A DNA stretch of 64,000 nt from Pseudothauera nasutitermitis (GTDB taxonomy: Bacteria; Pseudomonadota; Gammaproteobacteria; Burkholderiales; Rhodocyclaceae), in contig NZ_SSOC01000001.1 in the NCBI RefSeq assembly GCF_004801295.1, positions 248,001 to 312,000 on the forward strand, written 5' to 3'. Position numbers and translations under genes: made by a program. Under the pieces are notes generated by a model. That model had not been told where the DNA came from. It worked only from the letters and a program-made list of their open reading frames with translations, and did not search any database. This document shows, in pieces, positions 55,716 through 63,002 of the stretch; the stretch's first letter is position 1; every line of letters begins with the position of its first letter.

Positions 55716-56546
55716 TCAGGCCGCGCTGGCGGCGGTGTGGATCAGCGTGCCGACGTGTTCGCCGCGCAGGGCGGCGGTGAGCCGGCCCGGCACCAGCCCG
55801 TTGACCACCTGCACGCGTTCGATGTGGCGCGCGTTGGCCATCACTTCCGGCAAGGCGCGGTCCACCGGCAGGGTGCCGGGCTGCCGCAGCAGCGCCGCCG
55901 CGTCGACTTCCGCCAACAGTCGGGCCTGCCCGCCTTGCGGGCCGTTCGGGTCTTCACTGTAGATGCCATCCACGTCTTCCACGATGGTCAGCCCGGCCGC
56001 GCCCAGCGCGTCGGCGAGCAGGAAGGCGCCGGTATCCGCGCGGTGCGGCGGAATGCGCGAACCGGGGAATTCATGGTGGTGATAGGGCGGGAAGGCGCTG
56101 CCGACCACGGCGCGCGCGGCCTGCAGGTGGATGGCCAGTTGGCTGGCGATGGTGGGGTGCTCGATGTAGGACACGCCTTCCGGGGCCAGCAGCGAGGCCA
56201 GGATGTGGCCGTTCTGCCCGGCCTCGCTGGCCGCCAGCGGCGCGAGCGAGCCCACCGGCAGGCCCAGATCCAGGCCCACGCCATACACGTGGCGGGCGCG
56301 GATGCCGGCGCCGGTGAGGATCAGCAGGCGGTGTTCGGGCAGCAGTCGGCGGATTTCCTCGACCAGCGGAAGGATGGCCTCGGCGCCGCGGTCGATGATG
56401 CGCCCGCCGATCTTCACCACCTGCAGCCACGGCAGGATGCGGATCGGCCGCACGCCGGCGACGGGCTTGGTGAGGTTGCGGTCCTGCAGGGTCTGGCGCG
56501 CCAGCGCCGAGGCGACGTGCTTGATGGTATTGGTGTTGTCAGCCAT
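55716..56546 (-). CDS. mosA: Molybdenum storage protein, alpha subunit
   Basis: A 276-residue amino-acid-kinase-fold protein, the same length as Azotobacter vinelandii MosA and, from memory, near-identical through long blocks ([75 protein letters not shown]). With MosB it forms the hexameric cage that stores tens to more than 100 Mo or W atoms as polyoxometalate, using ATP. It is the second gene of mosB-mosA, 9 bases after mosB. The His-rich segment that helps seed Mo clusters is retained. Confidence 0.95.
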
Positions 56547-56555
56547 GGCGGTTCC

Positions 56556-57368
56556 TTAGCGCGCGGTGATCAGGGTGCCGACGTGCTCGCCTGCGAGCGC
56601 GCGGGTCAGGTTGCCGGGGACCAGGCCGTTGATGACCTGCACCTCGCGCACGTGCTGCGCGTTCTGCAGCAGGTCGAGCACGGGGAATTCCAGGATGGAA
56701 TCGTGCAGCCCCCTGGCCTTCATTTCCTCCACGGAAATCTTCGGAATGAAGGTGGGGTTCTTCGCCGTCTTGGGGTTCTCGGTATACAGGCCGTTTTCGT
56801 CCTTCACGTAGATCATCGCCTTGCAGCCGAACTGTTCGGCCATCAGGAAGCAGCCCGCGTCGGTGCGGTAGGGCGGAATCACCCCTTCGGCGGACGGGCG
56901 CATCCACAGCTTGTAGGGCGGCATGCCGCTGAAAATCACCGCATTCACCTCGGCCAGCGACAGCGGCACGGCGGACAGCCCCGCGCCGCCGACCACCGGA
57001 ATGCCGTGCTTGGCGAGCAACTGGCCGAGCATGGCGGCATTCTGGTCGGCCACCGAGGAGCCGAGCTGGGCGAGCACGCCGGCCGGCAGGTTCAACCCGG
57101 CGGCGATGGAGTACAGGTGGCGGGCGCGGGTGCCGGCGCCGGTGCCGATGAGCAGCTTGTGCGTGTCGCGCGCGGCGACGATCTCATCGACCAGCGGGTA
57201 CAGGCCGGCGCGGCCGCGGTCGATGATGCTCTGCCCGCCGATCTTGATCACCGTGGCGTCCGGCAGGATGCGGAAGTCGGCGGCCTGGGCCGTGGCGTCC
57301 AGAAGCTGCGCGTCGGTCAGCGAGCGCTGCATGAGGAGCGTTTCGAGCTCTGTTGTGGTGTCGCTCAT
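56556..57368 (-). CDS. mosB: Molybdenum storage protein, beta subunit
   Basis: A 270-residue protein, matching A. vinelandii MosB in length and in blocks such as FRILPDATVIKIGGQSIIDR, HKLLIGTGAGTRARHLYSIA and PYRTDAGCFLMAEQFGCK. The P-loop-like nucleotide site IKIGG and TGAGTRARH are intact. It is first in the operon, starting at ATG 57368; longer in-frame extensions up to 57956 overlap the DUF488 gene and are rejected. No nitrogenase, mod transport or ModE gene is in the window. Confidence 0.95.
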   Translation of the reverse strand: MSDTTTELETLLMQRSLTDAQLLDATAQAADFRILPDATVIKIGGQSIIDRGRAGLYPLVDEIVAARDTHKLLIGTGAGTRARHLYSIAAGLNLPAGVLAQLGSSVADQNAAMLGQLLAKHGIPVVGGAGLSAVPLSLAEVNAVIFSGMPPYKLWMRPSAEGVIPPYRTDAGCFLMAEQFGCKAMIYVKDENGLYTENPKTAKNPTFIPKISVEEMKARGLHDSILEFPVLDLLQNAQHVREVQVINGLVPGNLTRALAGEHVGTLITAR

Positions 57369-57527
57369 GGGGAATCCTTGCGTGGGGGGGTGTGCTCTGC
57401 GGCATGTCACGCCGGGAGCGTAGGGCAGAGCGTTGTAAAGATTCAACCACACGAGGCCAACAGCGCCGCCGTGCTGGCGGGCCGGGGAGAACCCTGCGAG
57501 GATGCGGGGAGCGACAGGGGAAAGGCG

Positions 57528-57878
57528 ATGAGAATTTCCATCAAGCGCGTCTATGCGGACGCCGACGGCGCGGACGGCATGCGGATTTTGGTGGATCGCA
57601 TCTGGCCCAGGGGGTTGACCCGCGACGCGGCGAAGGTCGATCTGTGGCTCAAGGAGGTGGCGCCCTCCGGCGAACTGCGCAAGTGGTTCGGCCACGATCC
57701 GGACAGATGGGCGGCCTTCCAGGAGAGATACCGGGCCGAACTGGCCGGCAGCGCCGCGCTCGCCGAGTTGCGGGGCATCGTCGCCGGGCAGAAGGCGGTG
57801 ACCCTGGTCTATGCGGCCCGCGACGAGGCGCGCAACAATGCCGTCGTGCTGCGGCAGGTACTGGCGGAAGAGGCCTGA
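57528..57878 (+). CDS. DUF488 family protein
   Basis: A 116-residue protein with the DUF488 phrases IKRVYADADGADGMRILVDR and IWPRGLTRDAAKVDLWLKEV, then SGELRKWFGHDPDRWAAFQ and VTLVYAARDEARNNA. The family function is unknown. The start ATG follows GGGGAAAGGCG. Divergent from mosB across 159 bases. Confidence 0.92.
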   Translation: MRISIKRVYADADGADGMRILVDRIWPRGLTRDAAKVDLWLKEVAPSGELRKWFGHDPDRWAAFQERYRAELAGSAALAELRGIVAGQKAVTLVYAARDEARNNAVVLRQVLAEEA

Positions 57879-58016
57879 CTCGAAACGGCGGAAACCGCTG
57901 CTTTCTTGTGTGCTGCCGCCAAGGGGCAGGCGGCAAAGAGCGGCTGAATAATGCATGGTGGATTTTGTTGTATTGTTTTGGCATTATTCGTGTCCTCCGC
58001 GCATGTTTCATCTGCC

Positions 58017-58991
58017 ATGTCCGGCCAGCCTGCCACCCCCTACGACGGCCTGTACAAGCAGCTGTTCTCCCACCCGCAGATGGTGGAGGCCCTGCTGCGC
58101 GGCTTCGTGCGTGAAGACTGGGTGGCACAGCTGGACTTCGGCACGCTGGAAAAGCCCAACGGCCAGTACGTCAGCGATGAGTTGCTGCAACGCGCCGACG
58201 ACGTGATCTGGCGCGTGCGCCTGAACCTGCCCGACGGGCGCAGCGAATGGCTGTACCTTTACCTGCTGATCGAATTCCAGAGCCGGGCCGATCCGTGGAT
58301 GGCGCTCCGTATGCTCACCTACGTGTGCCTGCTGTACCAGGATCTCATCAAGAGCGGCCAGATCGCCCGCGGCCGCAAGCTGCCTCCCGTGCTGCCGCTG
58401 GTGCTCTACAACGGCCAGCCGCGCTGGCGCCCCACGCGCGAACTCGCCCACCTCATCGCCGCCCCCGTCGGCCTGGCGCGCTGGCGGCCATCCTTCCGCT
58501 ATCACCTGCTCGACGAAGGGCGGGTGGCGGACGAGGAACTGCGGCGCCTGTCGGGCAACCTGCTGGCGCTGCTGATCCGCCTGGGAAACACTCCCGAAGC
58601 CCCCGCCATCAGCGTAGCCACCCGCGAATTGGTCCAACACTTGAAAGGCCCGCAGTACGACAGCCTGCGCCGGGTGTTCGTGGTGTTCTACAATCGGATC
58701 ATCCTTCGGAAACTGAACCCCGGCGAACCCATCGAAGAATTCACCGACTTGCAGGAGATCGATAGCATGCTGGCCGAACGTATCGAACAATGGACCCGGA
58801 GGTGGATGCAGGAAGGCCGTCAGGAAGGCGCTGCCAAGACCCTGGAGCATCTGCTGAGCCTGCGTTTCGGCGAACTGCCGGACTGGGCGGCGGCACGGCT
58901 GGGGCGGGCCACGGAGGCGGAGCTGGAGCAATGGACCGAGGCCGTACTCAGTGCCGACAGCCTGGAAGGGGTGCTGGGCAAGCCGGAATAG
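58017..58991 (+). CDS. Rpn-family recombination-promoting nuclease (PF04754-like)
   Basis: A 324-residue PD-(D/E)XK nuclease-fold protein of the Rpn/YhgA group. It starts ATPYDGLYKQLFSHPQMVEA. Active-site residues D61/D62 (RADDVIWRVRL) and E86-x-Q88 (YLLIEFQSR) are visible, as is VLPLVLYNGQPRW. The C-terminal segment (LLSLRFGELPDWAAARLGRA) resembles DUF4351. E. coli Rpn proteins are DNases that raise RecA-independent recombination; phage defence has also been suggested. ATG 58017 gives the family start. Confidence 0.92.
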   Translation: MSGQPATPYDGLYKQLFSHPQMVEALLRGFVREDWVAQLDFGTLEKPNGQYVSDELLQRADDVIWRVRLNLPDGRSEWLYLYLLIEFQSRADPWMALRMLTYVCLLYQDLIKSGQIARGRKLPPVLPLVLYNGQPRWRPTRELAHLIAAPVGLARWRPSFRYHLLDEGRVADEELRRLSGNLLALLIRLGNTPEAPAISVATRELVQHLKGPQYDSLRRVFVVFYNRIILRKLNPGEPIEEFTDLQEIDSMLAERIEQWTRRWMQEGRQEGAAKTLEHLLSLRFGELPDWAAARLGRATEAELEQWTEAVLSADSLEGVLGKPE

Positions 58992-59172: not shown

Positions 59173-61539
59173 TCAGAAACGGTATTTCAGCGTGGCGTAG
59201 AGATTGCGCGGGGCGCCGTAGTAGTGCGAGGAAGGATATGTGTAGTAGATCTTGTCGAACACGTTGTTCAGCCGCAGCGCCAGGCTCAGGTGATCGTCGA
59301 AGGCGTAGTTCGCCATCAAGTTGACCAGCGCATAACTTTTCTGTGAGAACTGAGTGCCTGCCGAGGCGAGATAGGTTTCGCTTTGCCAGAGCACGCCGCC
59401 GCCCACGGTCAGGCGGTTCAGATTGGCCGGCGTCCAGGTGGTGAACAGCTTGACCTGGTGCTTGGGCATATGGGTGTTGAGTCGCTGGCCGCTGCTGTCC
59501 CTGAGCACCGTGCGCGTGTAGCCGCCCTGCATCTGCCAGCCTGGTGCCAACTCACCGGCAACTTCCACATCCAGGCCGCGGACCTTGGTGTCGTCCGCGG
59601 CGACGTAGGCTTGGCCGCCCTCGGAGGTCTGGTTGTTGCCGTCGGCCACCGCCAGATTGTCCTTGCCGGATCGGAAGACAGCGGCACTGGCATTCAGCCG
59701 GCCGCCGAACCATTCGCCCTTCAAGCCCAGCTCCAGATTCTTGCCCGTTTCGGGGGCCAACAAGCGGCCATTGACGTCTTTGGTGCTCTGCGGATTGAAG
59801 ATCTCGGTATAGCTGACGTAGGCGGAAACCTGCCTGGTCAAGTCGTACACGATGCCGGCATAGGGTGTGAAGACGCTGCTTTCCTTGCGGTCATCGGTCA
59901 CGGCGCCATCGCGGAGTGCTCGCGTTTTCCAATTGCTCCAGCGCGCGCCGACGATGAAGGACAGGTCATCGGTGGCGTGCAGGTGTGTGGCCAGGTAGGC
60001 ACCCGACTGCTTGGTTCGGGTGGCCGATGAATAGAACGTATACGCGGACCAGTCCGGCTCAGGGTAACCGCTGCCATCCCAGCCCAGCACCTGTACGCTG
60101 TCGCCGGTATCCCAGACATTGAGGCCACGAGTCTTGAGGTCCGTATCAGAAGCATTGAACCCCGCCACCAACTCATGTTGCCGACCCCACAGCGTATAGC
60201 GCCCGTTCAGCCTGGTGTCGAGCGCATCGCCACGGCTTTCGGAGAGGTTGTTGCGCAGCGACATGATGCCCATGCCGTCCAGTGCCAGGGGAGGGGCAAG
60301 AAAGCCTCCTGCTATGCCGGTTTTGAATGCCCAGTCCCTGCTGCTGTGGCTGTAGGCCAGCTGGGCCTGCCAGTCTTCGTTGAAGCGGTGCTCCAACGCG
60401 GCTGAAAGCGTTGTGCGCTTGTTGTGCCAGTTGCTCCAGTCGGTCGTGGGATTGTTGTTGCGGGAGAAGGGCGTGGGGCTACCGTCGGTGAACACGCGGG
60501 TGAAGCCCATTTGCATGGCGGCGTCATGAGCCGTTTAGCGGGCATGCTCTAGGCTCAGGGTCAGCATGGTCCTGTCGCCCAGGTCGGCTTCCAGCACGCC
60601 GTAGGCCACGCTGTGGTAGCCCTGGTAGCGATCCGACCAGGAACCGCCTTCATCGTAGGCCGCCACCAGTCGGCTGCGCAGCGAGCCGGCGGCGTTCAGG
60701 GGGCCGCCCACGTCGGCCACACTGCGCCGCTGGCTCCAGCGGCCCATGCTTTGCTCCACGGAGGCCTGGAACTCATGAGTGGGGCGCTTGCGTATCAGGC
60801 TGATGCTGGCGCTGGGATCGCCCGCGCCGGAGAGCAGGCCGGTGGCGCCGCGCACGATGGCAATGGAGTCGTAGATCGCCGTATCCAAGGCTGCGCCTCC
60901 GCCCCAGCCATTCAAGGCCCAAGCATCGGAGGGCACGGTCACGCCATCGATCTGGTAGCTGTTGACACGGTAGCCCCGCGCGTAGGCCGACGAGTTGCTG
61001 CCACCCACTGCGGGACCCGTCCACAGGTGATAAATCCCAGGGGTCTGCTCGAACACTTTCTCGATCGAATCTAGCGCCTGATCGTCCAGCCGCTGCCGCG
61101 TCACCACCGTCACCGACTGCGGCGTCTCGCGCAGCGACAGGTTCAGGCCGCTGGCGGCAGAGGTGCTCCCCGTCGTATAGGAACCCGTGCCTTCGGTCCG
61201 CCCGCCGCGCTCGTGCGTGGCGCTGACGGTGACGGCGGGCAGCGTGGCCGTGCGGGGTGCTGTTTCGACGATCAGGGTGTCGCCTTCGATGCGGGCCTGC
61301 AGGCCCGTGCCGGCCAGCAGTTGGGCGAGGGCGGCCTGCAGGTCGGGGGCGTTGCTGATGCTGCGGGCTTGCTGGCCGGCGACGAGGGTGGGGTTCGTGA
61401 CCAGTTGCAGGCCGGCGGCGCGGGCGAGTTGGCCCAGGGCCAGGTCGAGAGCCTGGGCGGGCTGGTCGAAGGGGGCGGCGGAGGCGTGGCTGCCGAGGGC
61501 GAGCAGGACGGTGGCCAGCAGAGGCTTGCATCGTTTCAT
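59173..61539 (-). pseudogene. TonB-dependent siderophore receptor with STN domain, interrupted by an in-frame TAA
   Basis: The ATG at 61539 opens MKRCKPLLATVLLALGSHAS (signal), an STN domain (FDQPAQALDLALGQLARAAG) and plug (LRETPQSVTVVTRQRLDDQ). The frame stops at TAA (60535-60537) after SLEHAR. The same frame continues (TAHDAAMQMGFTRVFTDG) for 453 codons through a complete barrel ending YATLKYRF. Nothing is missing or shifted: a single codon, most simply CAA to TAA, breaks the gene. It could be a true null mutation, a sequencing error, or a readthrough site. It is regulated, presumably, by the sigma/FecR fusion directly upstream. Confidence 0.88.
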
Positions 61540-61644: not shown

Positions 61645-62943
61645 TCAGCGGCGGGTGATGAGCAGGGCGCCGTCGTCGGCGGTGGCGATGCGGATGGGCA
61701 GGCTGCGGGCGAGCCGATGCAGCCAGGCTTCGCCGTCGGCGATGCGCACGCGGCCGAGCACGGGCAGGCCGGCGGCGGCGGGGCTGACGTGGATGGGCTG
61801 CGGGCGGTAGCGGGCGAGGCGCTCGGCGACGAGGCCGAGGGGGACGTGGTGGAAGTCGAGCCAGCCGTCGCGCCAGGGGGCGACGGCGGGGGAGCCATGT
61901 GCGGCGTCGAGGGGGACGGTGGCGCCGATGAAGCCGGCCCCGGCCTGCACGCTGGCGTGCTGGTCGGCGCCCAGTTCGCGTGTTTCGCCATTGGGGGCCT
62001 GGATGCGTACGCGCCCGGATTCGACGTCCACGCGCACGCGCTGGTCTTCGATGTCCACGGCGAAGCGCGTGCCGAGCACGGTGAGGCGCATGCCGAGGGC
62101 GTCCACGGTGAAGGGGCGGCCGTCCGTGGCGATGCTGAAATAGGCGCCGCCCTGGTGCAGCGTGGCGCTGCGGCGGGTGGAGTAGTAGGCAACGTCGAGG
62201 CGGCTGGCGGCGTCGAGCAGCAGGGTGCTGCCGTCCGGCAGGGCCTGGCCGTGGAACTGGCCGGCGGCGGTGGCAAGGCGGTACTGGTCGATGGGCACCC
62301 AGTGGCGCCAGGCCTGCCACAGCGCGGGCAGGGCGAGGGCGCCGGCGGCGGCGCCGAGCAGGCGGCTGAGGTTCTGGCGGCGGCCTTTGCGCGGCGGGGC
62401 TTCTTCGCCGCGCCAGGCGTGCAGGGCGCGTTCGATGCGGTCCATGGCGTGCCGGATTTCGCGTTCCACGGTGGGGATGGAGATGCCGTGGCGTTCGGCC
62501 AGCTCCTTCTGGCTGAGCGCTTCCATGCGATGGGCGAGGAAGATCTCGCGGGTGCGCCGGGGCAGGGCGTCGAGGCAGCGGCCGACTACGTCGAGGGCTT
62601 CGGCATGCAGGTGGCGGCGGTCGACGTCCAGGGCGGGGTCGCTGGCCTGGGTGGCGGCTTCGTCGTTGCTGACGAAGCGCTCATGGGTGCGCTGCTGGTG
62701 GCGCTGGTGGTTCACCGCGAGGTTGGCCGCGGTGGCGAAGATGTAGGCGCGGTAGTTGTCCGAGTTCCGCTGCGCATCGTTGCCCAGGGGGTCGCCGGCC
62801 TTGCTGGCGAGGGCGAGCCAGGCGTCGTGCGCCAGGTCGCGCGCGGTGTTCTTGCAGCCGGCGCGCCGGGCAAGAAAGCGGATCAGGGCGTGGTAATGGG
62901 CCTGATAGTGCGGCAGCAGCGGATGGTCCGGCGACGAGGACAT
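61645..62943 (-). CDS. Sigma/anti-sigma fusion: ECF sigma factor joined to a FecR transmembrane signalling domain (IutY-like)
   Basis: A 432-residue single polypeptide. Residues about 12-83 are sigma region 2 (AGCKNTARDLAHDAWLALAS). Residues about 118-172 are sigma region 4 (EALSQKELAERHGISIPTVE). A basic linker (PPRKGRRQNLSRL) leads into one transmembrane helix (about 195-212), then a periplasmic FecR domain (LPDGSTLLLDAASRLDV, VLGTRFAVDI) and an STN-like C-terminus. The DUF4880 anti-sigma segment of ordinary FecR is missing between them. From memory, Pseudomonas putida IutY has this layout and is released by proteolysis. It lies directly upstream of a TonB receptor gene and downstream of a Fur-like site. 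Confidence 0.93.
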   Translation of the reverse strand: MSSSPDHPLLPHYQAHYHALIRFLARRAGCKNTARDLAHDAWLALASKAGDPLGNDAQRNSDNYRAYIFATAANLAVNHQRHQQRTHERFVSNDEAATQASDPALDVDRRHLHAEALDVVGRCLDALPRRTREIFLAHRMEALSQKELAERHGISIPTVEREIRHAMDRIERALHAWRGEEAPPRKGRRQNLSRLLGAAAGALALPALWQAWRHWVPIDQYRLATAAGQFHGQALPDGSTLLLDAASRLDVAYYSTRRSATLHQGGAYFSIATDGRPFTVDALGMRLTVLGTRFAVDIEDQRVRVDVESGRVRIQAPNGETRELGADQHASVQAGAGFIGATVPLDAAHGSPAVAPWRDGWLDFHHVPLGLVAERLARYRPQPIHVSPAAAGLPVLGRVRIADGEAWLHRLARSLPIRIATADDGALLITRR

Positions 62944-62979
62944 GGGGAGTCGATATGGAAAAATCGATAGTATATATAG

Positions 62980-63002
62980 TATTGATTCTTATTTCTTATT
63001 CG
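62980..63002 (-). promoter_or_regulatory. Fur-box-like site in an AT-rich promoter region of the fusion gene
   Basis: The minus strand reads GAATAAGAAATAAGAATCAA, sharing AATAAGAATC with the site at 24182-24199 and approximating the Fur core. A TATATATAC tract follows closer to the start at 62943. The 95-base gap is strikingly AT-rich against its surroundings. Confidence 0.5.

Follow-up and report, generated by a model that had tools for sequence, protein, structure and literature searches.

The window analysed here, a stretch of 64,000 nucleotides from Pseudothauera nasutitermitis, carries a FecI-like sigma factor that is encoded in a single uninterrupted chain with a predicted membrane segment and a FecR-type periplasmic domain. 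The joining of sigma and anti-sigma factor in one protein is already known from IutY of Pseudomonas putida, a sigma/anti-sigma hybrid (PMC5411451) that is assigned to ECF243 (PMC8999054) and has been described as unique (PMC5411451), and here it is part of a larger family. We consider it likely that the fusion in the window is a cell-surface signalling regulator of the IutY type, tethered to the membrane and released by proteolysis, and that its circuit is probably not inducible now, because the plug and barrel of the partner receptor differ from those of the closest ortholog and the receptor frame is broken by a stop codon.

The initial annotation had read this gene as one sigma/FecR protein, and the open frame of 432 codons, the Pfam domains (Table 1) and an AlphaFold model all bear this out. 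The match to Sigma70_r2, which in the window copy is weak, is found in 38/38 aligned fusions at E<=0.01. The model, which was built with 30 of 36 related loci, has helices of the sigma type followed by a helix at residues 193-215 and then a beta-rich part, with a mean pLDDT of 83.4, a pTM of 0.53 and values below 50 at residues 186-201. The best match of the model in the PDB is the periplasmic domain of PupR (6ovk, E 8.9e-20), other best matches being a Parabacteroides anti-sigma factor (4m0h) and ECF sigma factors such as sigma-E (1or7, E 7.4e-5). Judging from the model, residues 361-431 would be the expected partner of the signalling domain of the receptor. Within the FecR domain G291 and T292 are invariant in 38/38 fusions and align with the bond at which E. 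coli FecR cleaves itself, Gly181-Thr182 (PMC9249621), which lies within the LGTEF motif of that protein.

Table 1. Features of the fusion gene, its partner receptor and the region upstream (positions within the window)
Feature	Position	Strand	Basis or remark
Weak Fur-box-like sequence	62975..62993	-	31 nt upstream of fusion start; 11/19 matches to a Fur-box consensus
Fused ECF sigma / FecR protein, 432 aa	61645..62943	-	Open 432-codon frame; Pfam domains; L013 ortholog has the same frame
Sigma-70 region 2, residues 13-86	62686..62907	-	PF04542 (Sigma70_r2) 21.2 bits, below its 24-bit cut-off
Sigma-70 region 4, residues 120-169	62437..62586	-	PF08281 (Sigma70_r4_2) 49.9 bits
RRxxLxxLLG motif, residues 188-197	62353..62382	-	At start of membrane helix
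Predicted membrane helix, residues 193-215	62299..62367	-	AlphaFold model, first residues of low confidence; weakly hydrophobic
FecR periplasmic domain, residues 222-313	62005..62280	-	PF04773 63.6 bits; PupR-like fold (6ovk)
Gly291-Thr292	62068..62073	-	Aligns with E. coli FecR self-cleavage bond Gly181-Thr182
C-terminal periplasmic part, residues 361-431	61651..61863	-	Model secondary structure; 218-column match to PupR 6ovk
Receptor 5' part: STN signalling domain, plug, apparent signal peptide	60535..61539	-	STN 36.4 bits, Plug 59.7 bits
End of similarity to L013 receptor gene	61226	.	About receptor residue 105, just past LPAVTV; 93% nucleotide identity over 399 bases
In-frame TAA, receptor codon 335	60535-60537	-	After STN and plug, before barrel match
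Receptor beta-barrel part	59173..60516	-	PF00593 191 bits; same frame as 5' part, beyond the stop

The frame is taken to be real because an ortholog in Thauera linaloolentis (L013) is 95% identical and keeps it, with a dN of 0.017, a dS of 0.60 and thus a dN/dS of about 0.03 over 432 aligned codons, and these values show the fusion to be under purifying selection. A stop or frameshift between residues 175 and 200 was looked for and none is present. A separately started FecR is likewise not indicated, since the in-frame starts around the junction, at residues 140, 159, 167 and 216 within the range 101-270, have at most 3/6 matches to AGGAGG upstream. In having both domains in one chain the protein resembles an IutY-type hybrid, and not the canonical FecI/FecR layout of two proteins in which FecR has an N-terminal anti-sigma segment.

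It is this segment, represented in Pfam by DUF4880, that is missing. At E<=0.01, where 13 families matched and all are listed, DUF4880 is found in 0/38 fusions, and at E<=1 it is absent among the 25 of 43 families listed, whilst it is present in 3/3 separate FecRs of the window. The absence of the segment had been noticed from the sequence at the outset, as had the fact that the other systems of the window, which are three FecI/FecR pairs, all keep sigma factor and FecR apart. The loss is also apparent from the spacing between the sigma and FecR domains, which is 38-67 codons with a median of 42 in fusions (55 frames, which include many copies of one locus) and 65-187 codons with a median of 115 in separate pairs (n=116). 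An origin of the fusion by a plain frameshift or readthrough of neighbouring fecI and fecR genes was considered and rejected, as the DUF4880 stretch would have persisted and none of it is left.

Fusions of this kind are not limited to the window. From a search of contigs, in which the best 80 of 113 relatives were kept, came 79 loci. Of these, 36 match along the query, and in 36/36 there is no stop in the starting frame across the match. For L043 and L045 the length of the match is not divisible by three, which points to a frame break, and these two were left out of the alignment, which holds 38 rows, four from this genome and 34 from others. The records that encode fusions belong to Thauera, Azoarcus, genera of the Comamonadaceae type and a few bins. 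Amongst sampled genomes fusions were found in 1/41 relatives, that one being the present genome (E<=1e-40), in at least 1/369 genomes of the class, again the present one, and in at least 5/399 genomes of the order, the present one included (E<=1e-60), the last two counts being lower bounds from about four candidates scored per genome. The other matches of the class sample, L101-L106, were inspected on both strands and none is a fusion.

Within the present genome there are four fusions, thus three besides the window copy, with the other 70 matches covering mainly one half. The cell-surface signalling repertoire of the genome is in itself very large, with these 70 matches to a sigma or FecR half standing beside the four fusions, and there are 44 matches to the barrel of the window receptor, its own included, some of which are pieces of one gene.

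Trees were made for the FecR half and the sigma half, and in each of them a branch parts 42 fusions from 112 separate pairs, with SH-aLRT support of 97 and 99 by a quick method, although both trees have long branches and the loci were picked with a fusion profile. A clade of 42 fusions with distinct FecR halves would make IutY one of a family, within which one could compare how the anti-sigma segment was lost, what the membrane motif does and in which order the proteases act. A further fusion, L170, comes from a genome of the genus sampled around Pseudomonas (1405-2667 of its record, minus strand); at 421 aa it is longer than IutY (374 aa). By eye, a single frame codes for both its sigma factor and its FecR and shows no anti-sigma stretch between them, and a receptor frame with an STN-like N-terminus adjoins it on the same strand. 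It has no RR before the membrane helix, and neither tree places it within the fusion branch, its position in the sigma tree being unsupported. With L170 added the support for the fusion branch is 89 and 99. A single clade of all fusions including L170 was not rejected (AU p 0.19 for FecR and 0.42 for sigma, with 48 of the 112 separate rows used), so that an independent origin of the Pseudomonas fusion is not shown by these tests. IutY was not identified among the matches listed for 348 and 398 genomes around Pseudomonas, with 4-5 candidates scored per genome.

The predicted membrane helix is weakly hydrophobic. The best 19-residue Kyte-Doolittle mean has a median of 1.36 in the 42 fusions compared with 1.61 in the 112 separate FecRs, and is 1.14 for the helix of the L013 ortholog. 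The motif [RK]RxxLxxLL is found in 42/42 fusions and 0/112 separate FecRs (L170 falls outside that count), whilst any RR is found in 42/42 and 92/112 respectively, L170 again not being counted. Four positions of the motif, R189, L192, L195 and L196, are invariant in 38/38 fusions and R188 is kept in 36/38. As the 42 fusions form one group, this conservation may be inherited rather than functional. The arginine pair aligns beside R79-R80 of E. coli FecR, the export of which is Tat-dependent (PMC10924467, PMC11533796), and TatC is present in this genome; by analogy the fusion might also be inserted by a Tat-dependent route.

Comparison with IutY is of most help in suggesting how the protein may work. 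The sigma domain of IutY reaches residue 168 and is followed by one membrane segment and a FecR-type part (PMC5411451), the same layout as predicted for the window fusion; the precedent named in the initial annotation was apt. In IutY, and by prediction in the fusion, the membrane segment comes soon after the sigma domain and, going by the published residue numbers, would leave no space for the usual N-tail, and in both a receptor with a signalling domain lies alongside. Most of the published IutY mutant positions are also kept in the window fusion, with 6/8 matching at an offset of 27 and 5/6 at an offset of 56, these being the best of the offsets tried and the next best giving 5/8 and 3/6; taken alone the first block of 6/8 would be modest evidence. 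Differences are the length, 374 residues in IutY and 432 here (compared by published residue numbers only), the membership of the window fusion in a clade of betaproteobacteria that has a [RK]RxxLxxLL motif of its own, the four fusion copies of the present genome and the interruption of the window receptor. The FecI-FecR-FecA system of E. coli has the same three modules and the same kind of receptor, and E. coli FecR aligns with the fusion at the Gly-Thr bond and the arginine pair, but in that system, as in the separate systems of the window, sigma factor and FecR are two proteins, and the DUF4880 of the window FecRs (3/3) is absent from the fusions.

Activation of the fusion by proteolysis in the manner of IutY, which the initial annotation had fairly supposed, is considered most likely by analogy. 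A sigma factor that comes covalently joined to a membrane anchor and a FecR-type periplasmic sensor of its own would be held off mainly by the tether, because the usual anti-sigma segment is gone. Binding of a ligand to the neighbouring receptor would then be passed through the STN domain of the receptor to the FecR part. This part would be shortened by a periplasmic protease, and cleavage by RseP at the membrane would let the sigma half go, which could then drive transcription of the receptor gene. These steps are modelled on IutY, for which cleavage by Prc and RseP in the presence of aerobactin is described (PMC5411451). A search for homologues of the two proteases, which had been put forward as a check on the fusion, gave one RseP homologue and one protease of the CTP (C-terminal-processing) family above curated cut-offs in the present genome. 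The CTP-family protein lies in a frame of 484 aa, and E. coli Prc is longer than this; it may be therefore that the site-1 protease differs from Prc.

A tethered sigma factor could also be thought to work without any proteolysis, on promoters that lie near the membrane, as no anti-sigma segment remains to inhibit it. We regard this as very improbable, since the IutY mutant proteins that contain periplasmic residues are all RseP-dependent (PMC5411451), and the FecR domain of the window fusion keeps most of the positions whose change makes IutY constitutive.

Whether release can still be triggered in this strain depends on the receptor, and here the earlier interpretation fell short, as the fusion, the loss of the segment and the likeness to IutY all stood whilst the interrupted partner receptor and the four-copy clade had been overlooked. 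A TonB-dependent receptor follows the fusion in 39/40 loci (found with a profile built from 14 of them); at the remaining locus, L039, none was found beside the fusion, also when the search was made with the receptor that its relative L025 carries. Pfam finds STN in 34, the plug in 35 and the barrel in 33 of 39 neighbouring frames, L038 being left out and some of the frames being wrong ones. The window fusion also adjoins a receptor with STN and plug, the frame of which (61539-59173) is 789 codons long with one internal stop. As the break comes after the plug, normal activation of the window fusion is doubtful, and since plug and barrel also differ from those of the ortholog this copy is probably locked off or orphaned. 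An extra or overproduced signalling domain in the periplasm is known to block the proteolysis of IutY and FoxR (PMC11637429), which leads to the speculation that the STN-plug fragment, if exported and stable, may hold the fusion off. Interruptions were seen in 5/39 receptors, by a stop in the window, L024 and L038 and by a change of frame in L029 and L047, any of which may be errors, with L024 and L038 coming from metagenome bins. No claim is made that the breaks cluster at one site, as they lie at profile positions 348 (window), 613 (L024), 326 (L038), about 322 (L029) and about 195 (L047). Elsewhere in the genome, at C2:114201-116226, another receptor is apparently split over more than one frame.

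The receptor differs from that of the closest ortholog in more than the stop. The two genes agree up to 61226, where the signalling domain ends, and part from there on. Between the window and L013 the fusion is 95% and the STN part 91% identical, yet identity is only 19% in the plug and 24% in the barrel. The change may be on either side, in the window strain or in that of L013, and in three other orthologous pairs of the two strains the barrels are 94, 93 and 96% identical. Across 35 receptors (595 pairs, not independent) the identity of the fusion tracks that of the STN domain (r 0.91) more closely than that of the barrel (r 0.56) or plug (r 0.50). It might be assumed that exchange of the barrel is a trait of fusions, but this was rejected because separate systems have almost the same pattern, with FecR correlating at 0.89 with STN, 0.56 with plug and 0.61 with barrel (231 pairs among 22 receptors, from 113 pairs). 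Exchange at the boundary of the signalling domain is thus general, and the contrast between the window and L013 is the freshest case seen; in five separate pairs with FecRs at least 84% identical the barrel had changed in none. The site of the exchange, where the signalling domain stops, hints at which part of the receptor must match the regulator, and the presence of such exchange in separate systems suggests a general way for receptors to change ligand. A printed description of barrel exchange in such receptors was not found by title or start of abstract, which does not prove that there is none. The reverse discordance is seen between L010 and L015, with barrels 93% and plugs 98% identical and fusions only 76%.

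A bolder reading is that fusion and STN domain together form a portable signalling cassette for new barrels, and that the window receptor first had its barrel exchanged and then lost it to the stop, so that an exported STN-plug fragment is left to pin the fusion off. We think this unlikely as a whole, although if true it would repeat in nature what has been done in the laboratory, where an extra signalling domain blocks IutY proteolysis.

Two further readings of the locus turn on what the stop means. The whole locus may be decaying, with the receptor stop as the first sign, the fusion to follow and nothing regulated any more, and both the in-frame TAA at receptor codon 335 and the score of sigma region 2 under its Pfam cut-off would fit with this. 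Against it, the fusion has no internal stop and the dN and dS given above, an estimate that is a mean over the whole period since the two strains diverged and gives no date for the receptor stop, and the receptor has only its one stop in 789 codons, with a third-position GC of 0.85 before it and a still high 0.80 after. Decay is therefore possible but rather doubtful. The same solitary stop in an otherwise open frame could be put down to an error of sequencing or assembly, in which case the circuit would be a fully working one of the IutY type; the completeness of 100% given for the assembly, which has 20 contigs, is no test of a single base, and the only close ortholog, L013, has a different barrel and cannot arbitrate. 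An error is thought fairly unlikely, and a tethered regulator of the IutY type whose circuit is probably not inducible now remains the preferred reading.

Fur-like boxes were sought upstream of the fusions with a consensus sequence. The box of the window is not significant (shuffle p 0.125), and neither L013 nor the three paralogues of this genome have one at p<=0.05, whilst 23/38 fusion upstream regions do when compared with base shuffles, some of these regions being near-copies.

On the other side of the receptor, an 80-base similarity downstream of the window and L013 receptors was not accepted as an orthologous boundary because it is also found in L010 and holds an inverted repeat. Facing the interrupted receptor tail to tail is a gene of the PF04754 family (Transposase_31, YhgA-like), at 57951-58991 on the plus strand. 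Its tail, which has an inverted repeat, is found again beside the receptors of L010 and, less exactly, L013. Beyond it, at 55716-57956 on the minus strand, are two adjoining genes of the amino-acid-kinase fold, which look like those for the two subunits that make up molybdenum storage protein.
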